Below are positions 151-55,199 of a DNA stretch of 61,274 bases, piece after piece. Under the pieces are notes generated by a model that did not search any database, was not told where the DNA came from, and worked only from the letters and a program-made list of their open reading frames with translations. Source of the stretch: an uncultured Roseburia sp. (GTDB taxonomy: Bacteria; Bacillota; Clostridia; Lachnospirales; Lachnospiraceae); NCBI GenBank assembly GCA_947567625.1, contig CANONN010000018.1, positions 1 to 61,274 on the forward strand. Direction: 5' to 3'. Every line of letters starts with the position of its first letter. Position 1 is the first letter of the stretch. Made by a program: the position numbers and the translations under genes.

Positions 151-247
151 GTGTGAAAAATAAATTTTTCACACGGCGATTTGTGTCTGCGCGTTGCTTG
201 CCACAAAGTCGCTTATGCACAAAAGCAGCGCAGAAATTGGGATTTTT
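151..247 (+). promoter_or_regulatory. Structured 5' leader element, copy A (candidate cis-regulatory RNA)
   Basis: The stem GTGTGAAAAA (151-160) pairs with TTTTTCACAC (165-174) around a TAAA loop. One base later GCGA-TTTGTG (176-185) pairs with CACAAA-g-TCGC (202-212). The loop of this second stem contains CTGCGC (187-192), complementary to GCGCAG (228-233), which lies just before the ribosome site, so an H-type pseudoknot is possible. The 16-mer GATTTGTGTCTGCGCG (178-193) recurs exactly in copy B. The leader ends at the ATG of the next gene. Copies C and B precede thiC and a CPBP protease gene. Confidence 0.75.
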
Positions 248-17060: not shown

Positions 17061-17095
17061 ATAAAGGGACGGTTGCAAATACAGCCGATCACAAT

Positions 17096-17190
17096 TGCAT
17101 AGAGGGGAGCTTGCGGCAGCAGGCTGAGAGGAAAGTCAGTCTTTCGACCCATAACCTGATTTGGATAATGCCAACGTAGGGATGACAGAG
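17096..17190 (+). promoter_or_regulatory. TPP riboswitch (THI element)
   Basis: All hallmark pieces of the thiamine-pyrophosphate aptamer are present in order: GGGGAGC, CTGAGAG (17124-17130), the ACCC and ACCTGAT segments (17154-17160), GGATAATGCC (17163-17172) and ACGTAGGGA. A terminator follows immediately (17206-17238), so TPP binding probably stops transcription before thiS. Confidence 0.97.
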
Positions 17191-17205
17191 GATAGTAATA
17201 TTCTG

Positions 17206-20324: not shown

Positions 20325-20337
20325 GAAAGGTGTGATT

Positions 20338-20985
20338 ATGATCAAACGGGAACAATTATTGCTCTATGCGGTGACAGACCGCAGATGGGCAGTGCGCCAG
20401 ACCTTGTACGAGCAGGTAGAGCAGGCGCTTTTGGGCGGTGTAACCTGCGTGCAGCTGCGGGAGAAGCAGATGGAGGAGACGGATTTCCTTCGGGAGGCCA
20501 CTCAAATTTGCAGCCTCTGCCATGCGCACGGAGTGCCGCTCCTTGTCAATGATAATCTGGACGTGGCGCTAAAATCCGGCGCCGACGGCGTGCATCTGGG
20601 GCAGGGGGACGGCTCCGTGTCGACGGCACGCATGCGGGCGGGCGCCGATTTTATCATCGGTGTAACTGCCAAGACAGTGGAGCAGGCCAGGCGGGCCGAG
20701 GCGGAGGGAGCCGACTATCTGGGAGTCGGGGCAGTGTTTGGCTCCCCGACAAAGCAGAACGCCATCCGCATTACAAGAGAACAGCTGCGGGATATCTGTA
20801 ATGCCGTGGCGATACCCGCCGTGGCCATCGGCGGTATCGGCAGCGATAATATGGAGGCGCTGGCAGGGTGCGGCATGGCCGGCGTGGCGCTGGTTTCGGC
20901 GGTGTTTGGAGCCAGGGACATCCGCGCTGCCGCTTCGGAATTAAAAAAGCTGACAAGACGGGTTATAGAGGTAGATGGTAATTGA
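20338..20985 (+). CDS. thiE: Thiamine phosphate synthase
   Basis: Joins the pyrimidine pyrophosphate and thiazole phosphate to make thiamine phosphate; 215 residues. The family motifs are all there: CVQLREKQM, LLVNDNLDVALKSGADGVH, LGQGD, GVTAKTVEQARRA, YLGVGAVFGSPTKQNA and AIGGIGSDNMEAL. ATG 20338 is preferred (AAAGGTG six bases upstream) over an in-frame GTG at 20332. It is in the same operon as tenI. Confidence 0.96.
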   Translation: MIKREQLLLYAVTDRRWAVRQTLYEQVEQALLGGVTCVQLREKQMEETDFLREATQICSLCHAHGVPLLVNDNLDVALKSGADGVHLGQGDGSVSTARMRAGADFIIGVTAKTVEQARRAEAEGADYLGVGAVFGSPTKQNAIRITREQLRDICNAVAIPAVAIGGIGSDNMEALAGCGMAGVALVSAVFGARDIRAAASELKKLTRRVIEVDGN

Positions 20986-21129: not shown

Positions 21130-21248
21130 GATTGAAAAGTTAAATGTTCAATCTGCAAGTTTGTGTCTGTGCGGCATCCACAAACTTGTTCATGCGCATA
21201 GTCTCAGCAAAGCTGAGCCTTTAAAGCCGCGCAGAAATGAGGGAAAAT
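21130..21248 (+). promoter_or_regulatory. Structured 5' leader element, copy C (before thiC)
   Basis: A first hairpin, GATTGAA (21130-21136) with TTCAATC (21147-21153), has TTAAA in its loop. Next, CAAG-TTTGTG (21156-21165) pairs without a gap with CACAAA-CTTG (21179-21188). The loop sequence CTGTGCGG (21167-21174) is complementary to CCGCGCAG (21227-21234), just ahead of the GAGGG ribosome site of thiC: a possible pseudoknot. An extra hairpin CTCAG/CTGAG sits in the variable middle. It has the same plan as copies A and B, with compensating changes in the paired bases. It bears no resemblance to a TPP aptamer. Confidence 0.75.
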
Positions 21249-22559
21249 ATGGAACATTATACGACACAGATGGATGCGGCGCGAAAGGGGATTGTGACGG
21301 AGGAACTTAAGATCGTCGCCGAAAAAGAGCATATGGAAACGGCGGCGTTACAAAAGCTTGTGGCAGAGGGGAAGGCGGTGATCTGTGCCAATAAAGGGCA
21401 CACCTGCTTAAATCCTGAGGGGGTCGGCAGTATGCTGCGCACCAAGATCAATGTAAACCTGGGGGTGTCGAGAGATTGTAAGGATTACGATATGGAGATG
21501 CTAAAAGTGATGCGGGCGGTGGATATGGGCGCCGAGGCGATCATGGATCTCTCCAGCCATGGCGACACGAGGCCGTTTCGTCGCAAATTGACCAGTGAAT
21601 GTCCGGCGATGATCGGAACCGTGCCGGTATATGACAGTGTGATTCACTATCAGAGAGATCTGGCGGAACTGACCGCGAAAGATTTTGTTGATGTGGTGCG
21701 CCTGCATGCGGAGGACGGCGTGGATTTCGTCACACTTCATTGCGGCATTACCAGAAAGACGATCGAGCAGATCAAAGCGCACCGGCGAAAAATGAATATC
21801 GTCAGCCGCGGCGGCAGCCTCGTCTTTGCGTGGATGTCTATGACGGGCGAGGAGAATCCTTTTTACGAGTATTATGATGAGATATTGGAGATCTGTGAGA
21901 AGCATGACGTGACGATTTCACTGGGAGACGCCTGCCGGCCGGGCTGTCTGGCGGACGCCACGGATGTCTGCCAGATAGAGGAACTGGTGCGCCTTGGGGA
22001 GCTGACGAAGCGCGCGTGGAATCATAATGTGCAGGTGATGGTTGAGGGACCCGGCCATGTCCCGCTTGACCAGATCGCCGCCAACATGAAGGTGCAGAAT
22101 AGTATCTGTATGGGAGCGCCGTTTTATGTGTTGGGTCCGCTGGTCACGGATATCGCGCCGGGGTATGACCATATTACCGGCGCCATCGGCGGAGCGGTGG
22201 CAGCCATGCACGGGGCGGCGTTTCTCTGCTATGTCACGCCGGCCGAGCACCTGGCTCTGCCCAATGTCGACGACGTAAAACAGGGGATTATCGCCTCAAA
22301 AATTGCGGCCCACGCGGCGGATATTGCCAAGGGGATACCGGGAGCGCGGGATATGGATGACCGGATGGCAGAGGCGCGCCGGGAATTGGACTGGGAGAGA
22401 CAGTTTGACTGTGCCATCGACCAGGAGACTGCGCGGGCAATCCGTGAGAGCAGAAGCCCGGAGGAGGATCACAGTGATACCTGCAGCATGTGCGGCAAGT
22501 TCTGTGCCGTGCGCAGCATGAACCGGGCGCTGCGCGGAGAACATATTGACATACTCTAG
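21249..22559 (+). CDS. thiC: Phosphomethylpyrimidine synthase ThiC
   Basis: Radical SAM enzyme converting aminoimidazole ribotide to the hydroxymethylpyrimidine of thiamine; 436 residues, the short form of the family. Motifs seen: [45 protein letters not shown] and [18 protein letters not shown]. The C-terminal cluster is CSMCGKFC, spaced C-X2-C-X3-C, one residue tighter than the C-X2-C-X4-C of long ThiC. ATG 21249 (GAGGG five bases upstream) is chosen over ATG 21237, which falls inside the leader. The 263-base gap after thiE holds leader copy C, so thiC may be controlled both by the upstream TPP switch and by this element. Confidence 0.96.
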
Positions 22560-47018: not shown

Positions 47019-47150
47019 GATTGAAAATTAAAATTTTCAATCGCGAGATTTGTGTCTGCGCGCTGCAAAGCCATTTATGGCTTACACAAACTCGATATGC
47101 GCAATAAAGCTAATGCGAACATAGTTCGCAATGCAGAAATGGAGAAAATT
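47019..47150 (+). promoter_or_regulatory. Structured 5' leader element, copy B (before the CPBP protease)
   Basis: GATTGAAAAT (47019-47028) pairs with ATTTTCAATC (47033-47042) around a TAAA loop. One base on, CGAG-a-TTTGTG (47044-47054) pairs with CACAAACTCG (47085-47094). In the loop, CTGCG (47056-47060) can pair with TGCAG (47132-47136) just before the GGAG ribosome site. Extra hairpins (AAGCC/GGCTT, GCGAAC/GTTCGC) fill variable positions. It shares the exact 16-mer GATTTGTGTCTGCGCG with copy A. No separate promoter is visible; it starts 18 bases after the DUF2812 stop. Confidence 0.75.
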
Positions 47151-48143
47151 ATGATGCAAGAAAATATGAGAGTAGAACAAACGGTGGAGACGGAGCAGGG
47201 CATGCGTGCGCTGCCGCCGGATGAAAAGCAGATCAGGGCTCATTTTTCCAAACTGGGGTCCATGATGTTTTGCGGCACCCTGATTATTATAATTGGGCAG
47301 GTGATCTGTCAGGGAATTGCGAGCGCCGTCAATCCGAATATTGCGGACAATTATAATCTTTTGCTCGCCTCACAGATGGTGCCTATGTATTTGATCGGTT
47401 ATCCGATCATGTTTCTTTTGGTAAAACAGGTGAAGCCGTCCTCCATAGCGCAGCATGACATGAAAGGAACACAGTTGTTTGTGGCGTTTACCATCACCTA
47501 TGCGCTGATGATTCTTGGCAATCTGCTCGGACTTGGCGTCACCAGCGTGATTGGGTTTTTAAAGGGCGACGGGGTTGTCAATCCGCTGCTCAACATAGTT
47601 TCCTCGGGCAATATCTGGATCAATGCGATCTACACCGTGTTGCTTGCGCCGGTATTTGAAGAGTTTTTGTTCCGCAAGCTGGTGGTGGACCGCACCATCC
47701 GGTACGGAGAGGGAACCGCAGTCGTATTGTCAGGGCTGATGTTCGGGCTGTTTCACGGCAATTTAAATCAGTTTGTGTACGCGCTTCCCATGGGACTGTT
47801 TTTCGCTTTCCTCTATGCCAAAACCGGCAAAATCAGATATACCGTCATTCTCCATATGGCGGTGAACTTTATGGGAACCGTGCTCGGGCCTTTGTGTACG
47901 ACAGGCTTTGAGGAGGGAAGTGCGGCGGGGATGGCGGCTTCGGCTGTATTTTCCATCCTGGTGTACGCGTTTCTAATCACAGGAATCGTGTTTCTCGTCA
48001 AAAACCGCAAGTTATTTCACCTTTCGGCCGGTGAGGTGGCACTTGCAAAGGGGCGCCGTTTTCGCAATGTCATCGTTAATCTTGGCATGATATTGTACTG
48101 CGGGTTTTGGATGTTGAATATTATCCTTATGCTGTTTGTGTAG
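47151..48143 (+). CDS. CPBP (CAAX/Abi) intramembrane glutamic endopeptidase
   Basis: Membrane protease of the CPBP family, 330 residues with about eight transmembrane helices. Motif 1 EEFLFRKLVVD (paired glutamates), motif 2 FGLFHGNLNQF and motif 3 HMAVNF are all intact. Bacterial members act in peptide maturation, bacteriocin immunity or stress, but no substrate peptide gene is next to this one. ATG 47151 has GGAG 6 bases upstream; ATG 47139, in frame, has none. Translation is probably influenced by the structured leader 47019-47150. Confidence 0.92.
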   Translation: MMQENMRVEQTVETEQGMRALPPDEKQIRAHFSKLGSMMFCGTLIIIIGQVICQGIASAVNPNIADNYNLLLASQMVPMYLIGYPIMFLLVKQVKPSSIAQHDMKGTQLFVAFTITYALMILGNLLGLGVTSVIGFLKGDGVVNPLLNIVSSGNIWINAIYTVLLAPVFEEFLFRKLVVDRTIRYGEGTAVVLSGLMFGLFHGNLNQFVYALPMGLFFAFLYAKTGKIRYTVILHMAVNFMGTVLGPLCTTGFEEGSAAGMAASAVFSILVYAFLITGIVFLVKNRKLFHLSAGEVALAKGRRFRNVIVNLGMILYCGFWMLNIILMLFV

Positions 48144-48359: not shown

Positions 48360-51300
48360 ATGAAGCGAAAAGTGTTGGCGTACATACTGGCGGCCGCAGT
48401 GACGGTCACCGGCATTGTACAGACAGACGCGACGGCATTTGCGCATAATACGACGGATGCCGCCACGGAAAGGAGCGGGGAGAGTACGGAGGATGTCATA
48501 GACGTGACAGACGCTGTGAAAGCGGAAGCGCTCGGCAGTGAAGGTTACAAACAGATCACGGAAGAGACATCGACTTATGTTTTCGGGACGGATGTGACGG
48601 AAGGCAGCGCTTATTCCGAAGCCGCAGGCAAGGGATTTTCGCGTGTGGAGTTCCCGAACGAGGCCGCAGGCTGGGATGGCGGCAGCAGCGGCAAGGGTGT
48701 TTACCATCCAAGGCAGGAAGTGCGGACAGAGGGAGATACCGTGTATGTGGCAGCGGCTGACGGGGCGCTTGCCATTTCTTCGAGAGTCTGGACGGAGAAG
48801 GAGAGTACCGGATACGGTGTCTATACATATGAAGAGACGAATACATTTGATCTCGACTGTGCGAGCGCTGACTATGAGATCACGGTAGAGTTTGTAAACC
48901 CGACATCCGCGGCTTACACGGCTTATGTATCGGCGGAGGATATCGCCAGAGGTTACGATTTCAAGAATGACGGCAAAGACAACATGGCTCCGGTCACCGA
49001 TGTCACGGTGGCGGCAGGTGAGACCAAAGCGATTACGGTCAATGCCTGTGTCTACGACGGGCAGCTGAACCTGAAGTTCCTTGGGGCGAGCAGCGCCACT
49101 TCAAGGGCGGCAGCCATCAGACAGACTGTGTATGTCTCCAAAGTGACGGTGAAAAGAAAAGCGACGGAAGAGGCCGGTACAAAACCGACGATCTTCCTTG
49201 TCAGCGATTCTACGGTGCAGTCCTATACGGATTATTACGCGCCGCAGACCGGATGGGGCGAGGTGCTCTGCGAGTATTTTGGCGTGAGCGATTATAAAGC
49301 GGCGGCAAAGCATGCCGATAACAGTGTGCGTCATGAGTCCATGATATATGAGGCTGACGATGTGATTGTCGAGAACCGCGCGCTCGGCGGCCGTTCCTCC
49401 GCTTCCTTTATTCAGGAGGGACTTTTGGACGACGTGCTCGAGGACGTAAAGCCCGGAGATTATATGTTTATCCAGTTTGGCCATAACGACAATACGCCGT
49501 CCCGCCCGAACCGCTATGTGGCTCCGGCAGATTTCGGAAAATGGATGCAGACGTATGTAAACGGCGCGATCCAGAGGGGCGTGACGCCGGTTCTCGTGAC
49601 GCCGGTAGCGCGCTACGACTATTCGACAAATTCGGACGGCAGTTTAAAGACGTTCAACAGCGGATTTGCCAAATATGGCGCCGTGATGAAAGACATTTCC
49701 GAAAAACAGAATATCCCGTTGATCGACCTGACCGCACGCTCGATCGCAGTGTGTAACAAATACGGCATCGCGGACAGTAAAAAATTGTTCTTGCATGTTG
49801 CAGCAGGACAGTATACGGGGCAGTATGCAAACGGTGCAACGGATAATACGCATTTGCAGGTGCTCGGCGCAAAAGAGTTTTCCAAATGCGTGGCACAGGG
49901 CTTAAAGGCAAGCAAACACCCGGCTCTCGCTGCGATTGCGCAGTATGTGAACGTGGAGATGCCGCCTGAGGCGCCAAAGAATGTGCGCTTTGTCACCCCT
50001 GCGGAAGGCACGGCCTTGCAGCGGTCCGTTACGATCGAGTGGGATGCTTCCGAGGGGGCAACAAGCTATATCGTTTACCGCCGTTCTGTCAAGGGTGAAT
50101 ATTTAAAGATTGCGGAAGTTACCGGGACGTCTTATACGGATGAGAATGATGTCGCGACCAATATCCACAACTATTATACGGTGGCAGCGAGCAATACGGT
50201 TGGTGTCGGCGAGCAGTCCGATGTCTGTGAGACGCCGATTATCGGTTCGATGACGCTGGCAAATATGGAGAAGTACAGCGACAGAGCGCTGACCGGAATC
50301 GATCTCGCGGGCGGCAAGGGCGCCGGAACGCTGGTGTCTGCTACCGATGCGGACGGTAACGAATATACTTCCGGTGTATATTTAAGCTGGAGAAGCTTCG
50401 CGTCGGATTTTGATGACAACGATAATCTGACGACAACGTTTGATGTCTTTAAGGGGGAGACGAAAATTGCCTCCAACATTAAAGTGACGAACTTGATCGA
50501 TCCGGCAGGCACGGCAAGCGATACCTACAAGGTAGTCGGAAGCAACGACGCCACGATCGGTGTTACGGCAAAAGCGATCAAGCCTTGGGATAAACAGTAT
50601 CTTGAGTTTAGCCTGTATGCGCCGGCGGACGAGACGATGCCGGATAAGTCCAAATGTGATTACAGCGCAAACGATATGAGTGTCGGCGATGTGGACGGCG
50701 ACGGTGTCTTAGAGCTCATTGTGAAATGGTATCCGTCCAATGCACAGGATAATTCCAAGGGCGGTTACACGGGCAAGACGTTTTTGGATACCTATAAGCT
50801 GGACTGCTCGGCTGGTACGGCAAGCCTGATGACCCGTATTGACATGGGCGTCAATATCCGTTCCGGCGCTCACTATACACAGTTCCAGGTATGGGATTTT
50901 GACGGCGACGGCAAAGCGGAGCTTGCTGTTAAGACAGCGGACGGCACGACAACTTATAAGAGCAAAGACGGAACAGATAACAATTTAGAGAAAGTGGCGC
51001 ACGTAGGTGCAGTGGATGCAGCCGCGCTTCCGGTGGAAACGCAGCAGTCGGCCGCAAATCACGATTACCGCAGTTCATCCGGTTATGTGCTGGACGGCCC
51101 GGAGTACTTCTCATTCTTTAATCTGGATGACGGAACAAAGGCAGGGGAAGAGGTAGAGTATGCACCGGTGCGTGGCACGGTTGGCAATTGGGGTGATACT
51201 TATGGTAACCGTGTCGACAGATTTTTGTCGGCTGTGGCATATTTAGACGGTGAGAATCCGTATGCCGTGTTCTGCCGCGGCTACTATACGAGAACAACCC

Positions 51301-54300
51301 TGACCGCATATTATTATGATCAGGCAAGCAGCACGATCAAAACGCTTTGGAAATTTGATACGGACAAAGACGGAACAAATTATTGTTCTCAGGGTAATCA
51401 TGGCCTTTCTGTCAATGATGTGGACGGCGACGGAAAAGACGAGATTATCTATGGTTCCCTGACGATTGACCATAACGGTCAGGCGTTGTATTCGACTGGT
51501 CTTGGGCATGGCGACGCCATGCATGTGTCAGACTGGATGCCGTGGCGCGACGGTCTGGAGATCATGAATGTCCATGAAGAGGGCAACGCCAAATACAAGG
51601 CGGAAATCCATGACGCCGCGACAGGCGAGATGCTGATGGGTTATTGGATTAAAGAGGATACCGGGCGAGGCGCTGCGGCTGACATCGACCCCACGGCTCC
51701 CGGAGCAGAGTGGTGGACGATTGCAAAGCCTGGATTTAACGGCAAGCCGGCATGGGATTCTCTGGACGGAGCCGTTATGTCTACGACCTCTACCTTAGAA
51801 GATATTGTGATGCTGGCAGATGTCAATCCGCCTGCAAACTTTACGCTTTTCTGGGACGGAGACCTGCTCAGCGAGATTCAGGATCACAAATTTAACGAGA
51901 GCAACGGCTATGTGCCGATCGGAAGCAATATCTTAAAATGGGATTACGCGAACAGCAAAACCGAAGAATTATTGTATTCTGAGGAGATCTGGTCAAACAA
52001 CGGTACCAAAGGTAATATGGGTCTTGTAGCCGATATCCTTGGCGATTGGCGTGAGGAGATCATTACAAGGACGACAGACGCTAAGAGCGCGGACGGCAGT
52101 TATGTCGATGGCAACAATAAGATTCGCGTTTATATGACGACAATCCAGACGGATTACGTCGTTCCCTGCCTGTTAGAAAACCTCGCATACAGAGAGGGTA
52201 TCGCATGGCAGAACGTAGGTTACAACCAGCCGGCAAACGTAGATTACTTATTGTCTGAGGATGTGATTACGGCACAGCTTACGGCGGTTGACAGTGATGC
52301 CAAGGAGACAAAGATCGGCTTTACGGCGGCTAATGACGGCAAGTACGGCCACAAGATCGTGGGCTACAATGTTTACAGGGCAGATGTGGATGCCGAGGGC
52401 AAAGCCGGGGCATACACACAGCTTACCACGCTTGTGGTGCCTACAGCGGCAGACGCAGGAGCAGAGTATGATTATGTATACACGGATACGGAAGTAGAGT
52501 TCAATAAGACCTACAGCTACAAGATTGCGGCCGTTGTGGAAGCGCAGGGCGTTGTTGCAGGTGAGGGCGGAACAGCCGGCCAGACCGTGACAAGAGATTC
52601 TTATATGTCAAGAGCGGTAGAGGCAGACACGCCGGTAGATATCGCATCGGTTGAGCCGATTACCCTGGAGGATGTGGTACAGGGCACGCCGTGTGAGAGT
52701 GTTGCGGATTTACTGCCTAAGACGGTGAAAGTAACAGATAAAGCGGGCGCTGCGGTAGACGCAAAAGTTACCTGGGATGTATCGGCAGTGAAGCTCGCAG
52801 AGGTGGGCACCTATGATGTAAAGGCGAAAGTCAAAGGTTATGCACAGGAAATTGCGACGACATTGAAAGTTGTGGCAAATGTGATGACTGACCAGAGCAT
52901 CAAAGAGTTTAATATCGTAAAAGACAAGACGGATCTCTACGAAGTACTTCCAAATACCATGACGCTGACGTTTTTAAATGGCGTGCAGGCAGAAGTTGCA
53001 GTTACCTGGGATAAGGCGAGTGTAGAAGCGATTGATACTTCGGTGGTTGACGCTACCTACGTGGTGACAGGTACCTGGAAGAACAATGAGGTGATCGCGG
53101 ATGATAAGAGCGTTCAGATCACGGTGAAGATTGTAACGAATTATATCGTATCGGTGGACCCGATCAATGTAGATGTGGCAATCGGCGCAGGTGATATTCT
53201 CTCCATGCTGCCGGGTAAAGTGATGGCAACATATGAAAACGGAGAAAAGCAGCAGGTAGACATTGTTTGGTCGCAGGAAGACCTTGCGAAAGTGGATACC
53301 ACCAAGCCGGGTACTTACGAGATCGGATTCACGACAGAGCAGTACAATGGTGTATTGAAAGCGACGGTCAATGTATTGTATCCGGACATGTATAAGTTTG
53401 ATTTTGGAATTGATTCGAACTTGAAAGACAAGGGATGGACTGATGTCACAGTAAATCAGAAAAAAGGTACTAAGACAGTTGAGCAGCTAGGCCTTACCTA
53501 CTCAGATGAGAAAGGCTATGGATTCCTGGATGGTTCAAAAGTGATAGAGGGACGTACTGAAACCGGTTATACACAGGATGGTATTTACTCGAAAAATGTT
53601 TATCAGGATTTTGTATTGGGTCAGCCGGGTATTGAATTTGCGGTAAAAGTACCGAACGGCAAATATCAGGTACTGCTGATGTCCGGCAGCCAGGACAAAT
53701 CAAGAAATGTCGTAGCCGGTACGTTTGAAAAAGATACCGACAATGCAGTTGCGGTCAATTTCAGTTCCGATTCCAAGACATACGTTGTGGCAACTTTTGA
53801 AGTGGTTGTGGAAGACGGAAGACTTGATTTTGCTTGGACGGGCAGCAATGCCAGAACCAATATGATGATTGTACGTCGCATGGCGAGCATGTCCCTGTCC
53901 GAGCAGTCTGCGAAGCTTGAGCTGGGAGAAACGCTGGGATTGTCTGTGACCTATTTCCACGATGAGTATGATCCGGAGGCAACGGCGGACGGCGCTGTTT
54001 GGACGTCTAACAATAAGGATGTCGCGACAGTCGATGCCAACGGAGTTGTCACGGCAGTTGCGTCTGGAACGGCAGTTATCACAGCAACGAAAAATGGCGT
54101 GTCGGCCTCCTGTACGGTAAAGGTAGGTTCCGATGATACGGAAGGAAGCGAAAATACCGGAGACAGCCAGCCAGGAAACAGCGAGGGAACCGGGGACAGC
54201 CAGCCGGGAAGCAGCGAGGGAACCGGAGACAGTCAGGGAAATAGCGAAGCGACCGGAGACAGCCAGCCGGGAAGCAGCGAGGGAACCGGAGACAGTCAGG

Positions 54301-55199
54301 GAAATAGCGAAGCGACCGGAGACAGCCAGCCAGGAAACAGCGAGACCGGAAGCAGTCAGCCAGGAAACAGCGAGACTGGAAGCAGTCAGCCAGGAAACAG
54401 CGAGACCGGAAGCAGTCAGCCAGGAAACAGCGAGACCGGGAACAGCCAGGCGCCGGGAGCTAATCTCACCGAGCAGCAGAAGAAGCAGGTAGCAACACTG
54501 ACGAAGAAACTTGGCGTTTCTGAGGAAACGGCGATTAAGATTCAGGCATTGGGAGAACAGTATAATGTACCGCAGGAGACGCTTTTGATCAACGATAAGA
54601 CGATCACAGGCCAGAAATCCGATGCGGATATCAAAGGTTCGTCCTTTGCATTGCTACAGGCACGGGCAGCGAAGACCACAACCAATCAGATTACCCTCAA
54701 GTGGACCAAAGTAAAGGGTGCGGACGGATATCTGATTTATGGAAACAAGTGTGGCAAGTCCAACAAGTATAAACTGATTAAGACGATCAAGAAGGGCGGT
54801 ACCACTTCGTTTACGCAGAAGAAATTGAAGAAAGGAACTTTCTACAAATATATCGTGCGTGCATACAAAGAGGTGGACGGACACAAAGTTACACTCGCGG
54901 CATCCAAGACGATTCATTTTGTGACGAACGGCGGCAAGAACGGAAACGAGAAAGCTGTCAAAGTAAATAAGACGAAAGTGAATCTGAAACGAGGAAAGAG
55001 CGTTACCATCAAGGGAACGGCGGTAAAGGGTTCCAAGAAGCTCGTTTCGCACAGGAAAGTTGCTTATGAGTCAACGAATCCGAAAGTAGCGAAAGTGACG
55101 TCGGCTGGTAAGATCACGGCGGTAAAAAAAGGCAAATGTACGATTTATGTATATTCGCAGAGCGGATTGTTCAAAAAAGTTACCGTAACAGTCAGTTAA
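48360..55199 (+). CDS. Giant secreted rhamnogalacturonan acetylesterase-lyase with Ig repeats
   Basis: Secreted pectin-degrading enzyme, 2279 residues. Signal peptide 1-30. The first catalytic part (275-515) is an SGNH/CE12-type acetylesterase: FLVSDSTV with the nucleophile S284, GHND, and DNTH with D495 and H498. FN3 at about 537-625. Then a PL11-type rhamnogalacturonan lyase (641-1300): LAGGKGAGTLVSATD, DMSVGDVDGDGVLELIVKW, VWDFDGDGKAEL-like calcium loops. FN3-like 1305-1425, three Ig-like domains (1430-1672), a malectin-like carbohydrate module (1678-1841), Big_2 (1842-1920), a 110-residue Ser/Gly/Pro linker, FN3-like and a final Big_2 domain. No LPXTG. Deacetylation and backbone cleavage of rhamnogalacturonan I are thus joined in one chain. 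Monocistronic, with a strong terminator. Confidence 0.92.
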   Translation: MKRKVLAYILAAAVTVTGIVQTDATAFAHNTTDAATERSGESTEDVIDVTDAVKAEALGSEGYKQITEETSTYVFGTDVTEGSAYSEAAGKGFSRVEFPNEAAGWDGGSSGKGVYHPRQEVRTEGDTVYVAAADGALAISSRVWTEKESTGYGVYTYEETNTFDLDCASADYEITVEFVNPTSAAYTAYVSAEDIARGYDFKNDGKDNMAPVTDVTVAAGETKAITVNACVYDGQLNLKFLGASSATSRAAAIRQTVYVSKVTVKRKATEEAGTKPTIFLVSDSTVQSYTDYYAPQTGWGEVLCEYFGVSDYKAAAKHADNSVRHESMIYEADDVIVENRALGGRSSASFIQEGLLDDVLEDVKPGDYMFIQFGHNDNTPSRPNRYVAPADFGKWMQTYVNGAIQRGVTPVLVTPVARYDYSTNSDGSLKTFNSGFAKYGAVMKDISEKQNIPLIDLTARSIAVCNKYGIADSKKLFLHVAAGQYTGQYANGATDNTHLQVLGAKEFSKCVAQGLKASKHPALAAIAQYVNVEMPPEAPKNVRFVTPAEGTALQRSVTIEWDASEGATSYIVYRRSVKGEYLKIAEVTGTSYTDENDVATNIHNYYTVAASNTVGVGEQSDVCETPIIGSMTLANMEKYSDRALTGIDLAGGKGAGTLVSATDADGNEYTSGVYLSWRSFASDFDDNDNLTTTFDVFKGETKIASNIKVTNLIDPAGTASDTYKVVGSNDATIGVTAKAIKPWDKQYLEFSLYAPADETMPDKSKCDYSANDMSVGDVDGDGVLELIVKWYPSNAQDNSKGGYTGKTFLDTYKLDCSAGTASLMTRIDMGVNIRSGAHYTQFQVWDFDGDGKAELAVKTADGTTTYKSKDGTDNNLEKVAHVGAVDAAALPVETQQSAANHDYRSSSGYVLDGPEYFSFFNLDDGTKAGEEVEYAPVRGTVGNWGDTYGNRVDRFLSAVAYLDGENPYAVFCRGYYTRTTLTAYYYDQASSTIKTLWKFDTDKDGTNYCSQGNHGLSVNDVDGDGKDEIIYGSLTIDHNGQALYSTGLGHGDAMHVSDWMPWRDGLEIMNVHEEGNAKYKAEIHDAATGEMLMGYWIKEDTGRGAAADIDPTAPGAEWWTIAKPGFNGKPAWDSLDGAVMSTTSTLEDIVMLADVNPPANFTLFWDGDLLSEIQDHKFNESNGYVPIGSNILKWDYANSKTEELLYSEEIWSNNGTKGNMGLVADILGDWREEIITRTTDAKSADGSYVDGNNKIRVYMTTIQTDYVVPCLLENLAYREGIAWQNVGYNQPANVDYLLSEDVITAQLTAVDSDAKETKIGFTAANDGKYGHKIVGYNVYRADVDAEGKAGAYTQLTTLVVPTAADAGAEYDYVYTDTEVEFNKTYSYKIAAVVEAQGVVAGEGGTAGQTVTRDSYMSRAVEADTPVDIASVEPITLEDVVQGTPCESVADLLPKTVKVTDKAGAAVDAKVTWDVSAVKLAEVGTYDVKAKVKGYAQEIATTLKVVANVMTDQSIKEFNIVKDKTDLYEVLPNTMTLTFLNGVQAEVAVTWDKASVEAIDTSVVDATYVVTGTWKNNEVIADDKSVQITVKIVTNYIVSVDPINVDVAIGAGDILSMLPGKVMATYENGEKQQVDIVWSQEDLAKVDTTKPGTYEIGFTTEQYNGVLKATVNVLYPDMYKFDFGIDSNLKDKGWTDVTVNQKKGTKTVEQLGLTYSDEKGYGFLDGSKVIEGRTETGYTQDGIYSKNVYQDFVLGQPGIEFAVKVPNGKYQVLLMSGSQDKSRNVVAGTFEKDTDNAVAVNFSSDSKTYVVATFEVVVEDGRLDFAWTGSNARTNMMIVRRMASMSLSEQSAKLELGETLGLSVTYFHDEYDPEATADGAVWTSNNKDVATVDANGVVTAVASGTAVITATKNGVSASCTVKVGSDDTEGSENTGDSQPGNSEGTGDSQPGSSEGTGDSQGNSEATGDSQPGSSEGTGDSQGNSEATGDSQPGNSETGSSQPGNSETGSSQPGNSETGSSQPGNSETGNSQAPGANLTEQQKKQVATLTKKLGVSEETAIKIQALGEQYNVPQETLLINDKTITGQKSDADIKGSSFALLQARAAKTTTNQITLKWTKVKGADGYLIYGNKCGKSNKYKLIKTIKKGGTTSFTQKKLKKGTFYKYIVRAYKEVDGHKVTLAASKTIHFVTNGGKNGNEKAVKVNKTKVNLKRGKSVTIKGTAVKGSKKLVSHRKVAYESTNPKVAKVTSAGKITAVKKGKCTIYVYSQSGLFKKVTVTVS
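54133..54450 (+). repeat. In-frame tandem repeats encoding a Ser/Gly/Pro linker
   Basis: About ten imperfect units. The last four are 30-base copies of GNSETGSSQP and nearly identical at the DNA level; earlier ones encode SEGTGDSQPG and SEATGDSQ. Likely prone to length change. Confidence 0.85.

Follow-up and report, generated by a model that had tools for sequence, protein, structure and literature searches.

The window, by which we mean the whole stretch of DNA that was analysed, is 61,274 nt long and comprises positions 1-61,274 of the forward strand of contig CANONN010000018.1 from an uncultured Roseburia sp. (GCA_947567625.1). The genome it belongs to, called G000 or the own genome below, is a 93%-complete draft of 3.42 Mb. 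Three copies of one sequence plan were found in the window and are designated A, B and C. Their first hairpin, P1, begins at positions 151, 21130 and 47019, and the start codons behind them lie at 248, 21249 and 47151. The preliminary description had placed the copies at 151-247, 21130-21248 and 47019-47150, each ending at a start codon, and these coordinates were exact. Within the window, TTTGTGTCTGYGC occurs without mismatch at the three copy sites only. The common plan starts with P1, a palindromic hairpin of 24 bases, and continues with a stem P2, a loop segment L, a segment R, a Shine-Dalgarno (SD)-like word and the start codon. The P1 stem is either GTGTG/CACAC or GATTG/CAATC, L starts with TCTGYGC, and R ends with GCGCAGA and is shorter in copy C. 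In P2, TTTGTG/CACAAA is invariant and paired changes occur in the lower part of the stem. The constant P2 segment and the paired changes in both stems had been pointed out before and were confirmed. A TAAA in or near the loop of the first hairpin, also noted earlier, is one of several P1 loop types.

All features of the copies lie on the forward strand. In copy A, P1 (GTGTGAAAAATAAATTTTTCACAC) occupies 151-174. It is followed at 176-212 by P2 (176-185 pairing with 202-212) with L at 186-197 (TCTGCGCGTTGC), and the 3' pseudoknot strand R, the partner of L, lies at 225-234 (GCAGCGCAGA). These assignments rest on the sequence and on the covariation of P1, P2 and L:R described below. The SD-like word TTGGGA and the start codon (ATG, 248-250) take up 237-250. 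A second SD-like word, GGAG at 143-146, is located outside the element and would be the original SD. The gene behind copy A (248-553) encodes a protein of 101 aa that weakly resembles DUF948 (27.2 bits; the Pfam cut-off is 37.2). In copy B, P1 is found at 21130-21153 and P2 with its loop at 21155-21189, where sequence and folding indicate a stem of 21155-21165 with 21179-21189 and L at 21166-21175 (TCTGTGCGGC). The R strand at 21226-21235 (GCCGCGCAGA) is a 10-bp complement of L with one G.U, and the SD-like GAGGGA and the ATG (21249-21251) lie at 21239-21251. The gene downstream (21249-22559) is thiC, coding for phosphomethylpyrimidine synthase (NF009895, 646.3 bits, cut-off 410).

Copy C starts with P1 at 47019-47042 (GATTGAAAATTAAAATTTTCAATC, from sequence and folding), followed at 47044-47094 by P2 (47044-47054 with 47085-47094), L (47055-47066) and an inner hairpin (47068-47083). 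A middle segment M (ATGCGCA, 47097-47103) complements L and the usual R, with slight covariation only. The stretch 47115-47137 contains a hairpin GCGAAC/GTTCGC (47115-47129) and the R remnant GCAGA (47133-47137), and the SD-like TGGAG with the ATG (47151-47153) is found at 47140-47153. Downstream of copy C, a CPBP/Rce1-like membrane protein of 330 aa is encoded (47151-48143; PF02517, 74.3 bits, cut-off 22.4). The preliminary description noted that CTGYGC of the P2 loop can pair with GCGCAG-like bases directly 5' of the SD. This holds, with GCGCAG, for copies A and B, but in copy C the contiguous L/R complement is reduced to TCTGC/GCAGA, because the hairpin GCGAAC..GTTCGC splits the 3' strand. 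The gene right 3' of the host gene of copy C (48360-55199, forward strand) encodes a 2279-aa protein with a rhamnogalacturonan lyase family 11 domain and bacterial Ig-like repeats. The window further contains a TPP riboswitch (17093-17199, forward strand; 57.0 bits against an Rfam gathering score of 54.3), together with a thiamine monophosphate synthase gene (20332-20985) and thiC.

The element is not restricted to three copies. When up to one mismatch was allowed, a 13-base core was found at 72 sites of the own genome (47 without mismatch), and the reversed pattern at 7. Of these 72 sites, at least four hold something other than a whole element: the sequences of L019, L049 and L008:2988 are unrelated, and L013 is a fold-back. 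A covariance model, R1, was built from 24 own-genome copies. The own-genome alignment had been cleared of six rows that were partial or unrelated and of copies whose 90-base cores were identical, and 11 of 35 copies were left out of the training set (P1 absent or altered). R1 yielded 57 matches in the own genome at E<=0.001. Subfamilies are distinguished by their P1 (GATTG, GTGTG or GAGTG), their L/R pair and the small hairpin cassettes they carry, and several copies have an identical 90-base core in common.

The model was then applied to other genomes. Matches were obtained in 14 of 61 genomes, namely the own genome, 12 of 36 genomes of the same genus and 1 of 24 from other families; the remaining 24 same-genus genomes had none. 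Among the relatives, the numbers were 29 in G023, 17 in G011, 14 in G015, 12 in G026 and 10 in G006. Within the family Lachnospiraceae, 28 of 299 genomes were matched, the own genome included, and among 291 genomes of the class the own genome alone was matched, with none in the 290 others. Since few candidates were scored per genome and the filters were strict, the family and class searches give lower bounds both for the copies and for the absences. Named genomes were scanned with a pattern, which gave at least 118 stretches; the 80 listed came mostly from Lachnospiraceae genera and isolates and from uncultured Clostridia. Carriers among the matches listed include Roseburia, Lachnospira, Butyribacter intestini TF01-11, Parablautia and the Lachnospiraceae bacteria 28-4, 10-1 and 526-35. 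The named-genome and relative sets overlap, as L263 is the same DNA as L098 (G015) and L298 the same as L129 (G023). In total, about 290 model matches were obtained: 57 in the own genome, about 105 more in the 61-genome set and about 125 more in the family set. That the family is wider than three copies is thus supported by the covariance-model search. The earlier statement that no named motif has this plan holds for Rfam 15, which at the gathering threshold returned only tRNA and TPP in the whole window, and for copy C searched at E up to 10, where the best match reached 16.8 bits (gathering score 80). Among the titles and abstract beginnings listed from the open-access literature, which leaves out most subscription journals, none described such an element.

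Folding energies (z) were -1.46 for copy A, -2.67 for copy B and -3.16 for copy C. Energy alone is weak evidence and the folding program cannot represent a pseudoknot; it was therefore set aside as sole evidence of structure, and the case rests on covariation. Alignment A3 comprised 102 matches, 101 of them distinct, with 100 hand-chosen loci (73 of 80 from named genomes, 23 from relatives and 4 from the own genome). Pairing was found in 91.6% of the cells of P1, 99.7% of P2 and 87.3% of L:R. Two-sided changes occurred in 18 of the 25 pairs, a number reached in none of 500 shuffles, and all five measures of covariation were above all 500 shuffles. As P1 and P2 are part of the model, this alignment leans to these stems and not to L:R. 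For 86 distinct variable L/R types, L with its own partner gave -5.77 kcal/mol, against -4.50 +/- 0.16 kcal/mol when the partners were permuted (none of 2000 permutations was as low); this permutation, like the covariation and G.U controls, removes relatedness in part only. In P1, P2 and the inner pseudoknot, 95 G.U cells stood against 22 A.C cells, a ratio of 4.3 compared with 1.9-3.2 in 300 shuffles, which favours folding of the coding strand. When the four outer pseudoknot pairs, whose register differs between subfamilies, were included, the excess was small (160:67 against 194:98 shuffled). Thus, the compensatory changes expected of a structured RNA are present and the fold is real: P1 and the pseudoknot of the P2 loop with the SD flank covary across 101 distinct copies. 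The folded RNA proposed at the outset is supported by the covariation above all shuffles and by the coding-strand preference.

The pseudoknot is not universal, because two copies of G035 (L090 and L109) have a P2 loop without L and retain M:R complementarity. In some copies, a hairpin cassette AAGCCATNNATGGCTT lies within the P2 loop and in others 3' of P2 (L026 and L030 compared with L017), an arrangement suggestive of a modular hairpin insert inside the element. A leader peptide starting at a GTG or TTG in P1 and reading through the element was also considered. This idea was dropped, since by inspection the frame of the ORF relative to the gene varies among copies.

In the 30 best own copies, the distance from GCAGAAATG to the ATG was 18 bases in 28 and 19 bases in 2, and an ORF of at least 60 aa followed 27 of them. 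Such an ORF was present behind 108 of 124 copies from the own genome and relatives, and behind 81 of 85 named-genome copies among the matches listed (both L246 rows excluded). The spacing from AAATG to ATG was 9 in 61 of the 77 copies with an ATG in range. The flanks were analysed in the 78 and 80 copies with a script-recognised P1, out of 195 collected rows (109 with any P1 call). In 59 of 80 copies, the 16 bases preceding P1 contained GGAG, GAGG or AGGA, while control windows of 16 bases farther upstream contained an SD-like word in 12, 17, 8 and 8 of 80. Together with the placement before start codons, this upstream word indicates that in most cases the element is flanked by an SD-like word on one side and by the start codon on the other, and that it carries a further SD at the 3' end.

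Next to the position, the identity of the host genes was analysed. In the own genome, valS, glyS, fabF, deoC, ilvN, trmB, trpC and thiC scored above the NCBIfam cut-offs. Below the cut-off were N-terminal parts of a transketolase-like (278 aa) and a glmU-like (245 aa) protein, and the rest of the 20 host proteins tested (ABC transporters, methyltransferase-like, shikimate-kinase-like and others) were below the cut-off or had no match. Hosts in other genomes, by reading of the sequences, presumably include recA, pheS, uvrA, rbfA, def and dapF. Host genes are unrelated, often housekeeping, and mostly different between species. Few likely orthologous host pairs were found between carriers (ClpX-like, 84%; trpC, 41%). 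A comparison of the own genome with 81 named-genome proteins revealed fsa (83%), ilvN (61%) and one pair of 43% as shared hosts, and secE (94%) and one pair of 71% were shared between named genomes. Carriers perhaps have more host genes in common than expected by chance.

At 45 orthologous loci of same-genus relatives (13 fabF, 21 valS and 11 thiC; one genome per species), no copy was detected at E<=0.01; the relatives' intergenic DNA is too divergent for base-by-base alignment. The best match below the threshold was at thiC of G019 (E 0.031). In G004, G019 and G020, GCAGAAATGRRG lies directly 5' of the thiC start and is probably a relic of the element. Hence, the same element is found at non-orthologous places and is absent at orthologous ones, as in a mobile element. 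At valS, the own protein begins with MGKEL.. straight after the element (L189), and that of several relatives (valS loci L190-L210) starts with MCQN.. behind a GGTGGTACCGCG leader, which we take to be T-box-like. Judged from these sequences, valS of the own genome may have acquired a different start site through the insertion.

Copies were also found inserted next to one another. In L107, a 5'-shortened copy follows closely on the SD in the right end of an older copy, and L109 (G035) has a 5'-shortened copy without P1 behind an older right end in the same way. Further tandem cases are L105, L081 and L073. On contig C11 of the own genome (L397), units of some 30 bases that contain only middle and right-end segments are repeated in tandem about 100 bases upstream of position 605. 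L104 (G000 C16:41432-41565) is a fold-back copy in which an inverted P2 5' arm precedes the 3' half, an arrangement as might arise after template switching at the P2 hairpin. We then compared the left flank by P1 with the right-end SD region. At least 8 bases were identical in 6 of 78 copies, where permutation within P1 type gave an expectation of 1.4 (p 0.0016). This suffix measure was devised after inspection of the flanks, and its four statistics gave p 0.0044, 0.0104, 0.0046 and 0.0016. With the first, looser measure (longest common word), p was 0.06 for the mean, 0.17 for at least 6 bases and 0.05 for at least 7. Examples of duplicated flanks are GAGGAATAAA in L096 and GAGGAGAAA in L111. 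Most copies have no target duplication, and the signal is modest.

Carriers of the element were sought as well. None of 72,556 plasmid records contained a match. Among 50,697 phage records there were 14 matches, all in unannotated faecal 'Bacteriophage sp.' scaffolds, and 12 of them cover the first 47-48 query bases. Four scaffolds (MT838294, MT836618, MT836374 and MT838019, L449-L452; UNVERIFIED, 5-18 kb) all carry an apparently whole element before bacterial-looking genes, with ORFs of 354-422 aa behind it in three of the four by frame reading. Given these whole elements and ORFs, the scaffolds are as likely to be bacterial DNA among the virome data as phage DNA, and the idea of a plasmid or phage origin was dropped. 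The four pattern matches in viral contigs consisted of one real copy (L338) and one unrelated sequence occurring three times. As candidate for an autonomous copy, only L108 emerged, which among 104 distinct P1 sites of three types is the only one without P2 on both strands. Its right end is 44 bases off; thus no cargo was seen there, and the candidate was rejected.

Based on these observations, we consider it quite probable that the copies belong to a mobile element that is non-autonomous, enters the spacer separating the SD from the start codon and brings along an SD of its own. That a mobile element might carry the structure had been suggested early on, and this suggestion gained weight from the high copy number, the near-identical copies before unrelated genes, the patchy distribution, the mostly non-orthologous sites in different species and the nested and tandem copies. 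The outcomes named in advance as contrary were a lack of covariation, an Rfam match and copies away from start codons; none occurred. According to the proposed mechanism, an element of about 100-140 bases in Lachnospiraceae would land in sense orientation between the SD of a gene and its start codon. It consists of the 5' hairpin P1, of P2 with loop L pairing with R (GCGCAGA) as a pseudoknot, and of a 3' end, GCAGAAATGRGGA, with a new SD about 9 bases ahead of the existing ATG. After insertion, the original SD would be left about 100 bases upstream, and translation would start from the element-borne SD, so that the gene stays on. The pseudoknot may hold this SD in a defined, accessible context, and insertion before essential genes would thereby be tolerated. 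Movement would have to be driven in trans by an enzyme.

One form of this explanation is movement through RNA, in which the leader RNA would be reverse-transcribed in trans into a new ribosome-binding site, starting from its 3' end, as for a SINE. We regard this route as possible, though less likely than not. It is compatible with the kept 3' ends, the frequent 5' loss and the lack of long terminal inverted repeats, and the putative target duplications, variable as they are, would fit it as well. G000 has 25 P1 sites of the GATTG type; the right end is retained at 24 of them (22 whole elements and two, L108 and L404, joined almost directly to it), and the other one runs off the contig. Near-consensus copies without the 5' part break off at differing points (L043, L047, L050, L103 and L107). 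The right-end pattern GCAGAAATGRRG-N4-7-ATG is present in 22 of 41 genomes, with 66 occurrences in G000, 34 in G023, 31 in G015, 13 in G011 and 12 in G006; the reversed control gave none in all 41. Twenty further stretches of the own genome contain 21 right ends, with the L core in none of them within 110 bases upstream, and in L396 a right-end fragment lies straight behind GGAGAG, adjoining an SD. These counts indicate that 5' ends are frequently lost and 3' ends seldom. Not all right ends are stubs, as those of L416, L420 and L426 in G015 retain a P2 and L that are diverged by eye, and single stubs may be convergent SD contexts, as 0-2 right ends are also found in same-genus genomes without R1 matches.

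Hence, 5'-shortened copies with intact 3' ends do exist, but selection to keep the ribosome-binding site functional could be enough to account for the kept 3' ends and the constant spacing, and could cause the 5' loss as well as RNA-templated insertion could. In addition, one GTGTG-type copy (L009) has no right end. The search for a reverse transcriptase (RT) likewise speaks against this route. No retroelement RT was found in the own draft genome, where one long RT and one fragment are present; the former (575 aa, L341:1577-3301, contig C55) has RT_UG31 as best PADLOC match and is a candidate defence RT. Conversely, G016 has 15 RT matches, eleven with open frames of 466 aa, and no element. RT and Y1 transposase searches covered the own genome, 22 of the same genus and 14 others (G023 and G026 lie outside this set), and within it neither a transposase nor a retroelement RT emerged that could be tied to the element.

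It is less likely that the element is an ordinary product of DNA transposition, of the MITE, REP/RAYT or IS200/IS605 type, whose targeting of start sites is only apparent because other insertions were lost or missed. P1 is perfectly palindromic, and the SD-like GGAG of the left flank and the GRGG of the right end look like a short target word; GTAG/GGAG words occur in RAYT elements. However, the longest inverted match between the 20-base ends was only 3-6 bases in 75 copies, with a mean of 4.27 compared with 3.92 for shuffled right ends, so that the terminal inverted repeats of DDE-type MITEs are not present. The Y1 transposase (PF01797) was found in G004, G020 and G022 but is absent from G000, G006, G011 and G015, despite their 57, 10, 17 and 14 copies. 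Moreover, insertions between genes and away from start codons should be neutral and survive, yet most copies have an ORF of at least 60 aa behind them, as counted above.

Rather improbable is a reading as a cis-regulatory RNA with a large regulon (a riboswitch, a protein-binding leader or a thermometer), in which L:R pairing or competition by M gates the SD in response to one signal. Compensated, conserved structure in a 5' leader at the SD and the many metabolic host genes would suit it. The segments L, M and R further allow alternative pairings, which might hide or expose the ribosome site as first suggested, with L:M pairing in 88.5% and M:R in 87.0% of the cells. The covariation of these pairings is barely above that of shuffles (0.192 against 0.171 for L:M and 0.183 against 0.155 for M:R), M is lost in several copies, and the two G035 copies mentioned above are without L. 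Near-identical copies precede valS, glyS, fabF, a membrane protease-like gene and others with no common pathway, and among the hosts of the own genome and relatives no conserved link to the genes of one pathway was found, as a metabolite riboswitch would have. Hosts that mostly differ between species, the lack of the element in 24 of 36 congeners, the nested copies and the 5' stubs argue against this reading, too. The spread is unlikely to be due to a ligand switch with a regulon; gene regulation is possible but is not what the distribution suggests. Chance similarity or an assembly artefact, for which nothing but the draft state of the genome speaks, is practically eliminated by about 290 model matches in independent genomes and by the reversed-pattern control.

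If the mobile-element explanation is true, dozens of genes, housekeeping genes included, use the ribosome-binding site of a mobile element instead of the ancestral one. Gene start sites would then be the safe harbour of such an element, tolerated through the replacement that it carries. Should the SINE-like route apply, each target gene would gain a self-contained pseudoknotted ribosome-binding site, and the start site itself would be the target. Nearly one leader before dozens of genes would provide natural parallel experiments on 5' structure and translation, and may give portable, insulated ribosome-binding parts for Lachnospiraceae. It would also raise the question which machinery can find a start site. 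For annotation, a leader sequence shared by unrelated genes would be due to insertion and not to a regulon.

Several known systems resemble the element in part. Eukaryotic SINEs are short structured repeats with 5'-shortened copies and variable target duplications. The element shares the short structured repeats and the 5'-shortened copies by way of analogy, and its putative target duplications would be a third likeness. REP sequences, moved by RAYT/Y1 enzymes, are dispersed palindromic hairpins with a short conserved word by the hairpin. Palindromic hairpin, dispersal and adjoining short word are common to both; the element differs in its start-site location and in that the own and three other element-rich genomes have no Y1_Tnp match. 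In translational riboswitches such as preQ1-II, a pseudoknot strand of the leader lies at the SD. The element, like these and other leader pseudoknots, has a pseudoknot strand at or beside the SD in the 5' leader. The pnuC motif is described as belonging to one kind of gene and as able to pair with the SD itself (PMC8632094), whereas the element has dispersed copies before unrelated genes and its R lies just upstream of the SD. The MRSC-65-2 motif is structured and covarying, has dozens of copies per genome and was classed as mobile or repeat by its authors (NAR 2024, PMC11109978). It is a single long stem with a UYCCGG repeat in diverse phyla, and in the parts consulted no pseudoknot or start-codon placement is described for it (PMC11109978). 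Reviews of MITEs (2024, PMC10969869) and of small mobile sequences (2007, PMC2229807) do not contain 'ribosome binding', 'Shine-Dalgarno' or 'start codon' in their main text. MITEs and small mobile sequences share with the element that they are short, non-autonomous, patchy, mostly intergenic and foldable as RNA, with many near-identical copies. Unlike MITEs, the element lacks long terminal inverted repeats, lies sense to the gene between SD and ATG, and carries its own SD.
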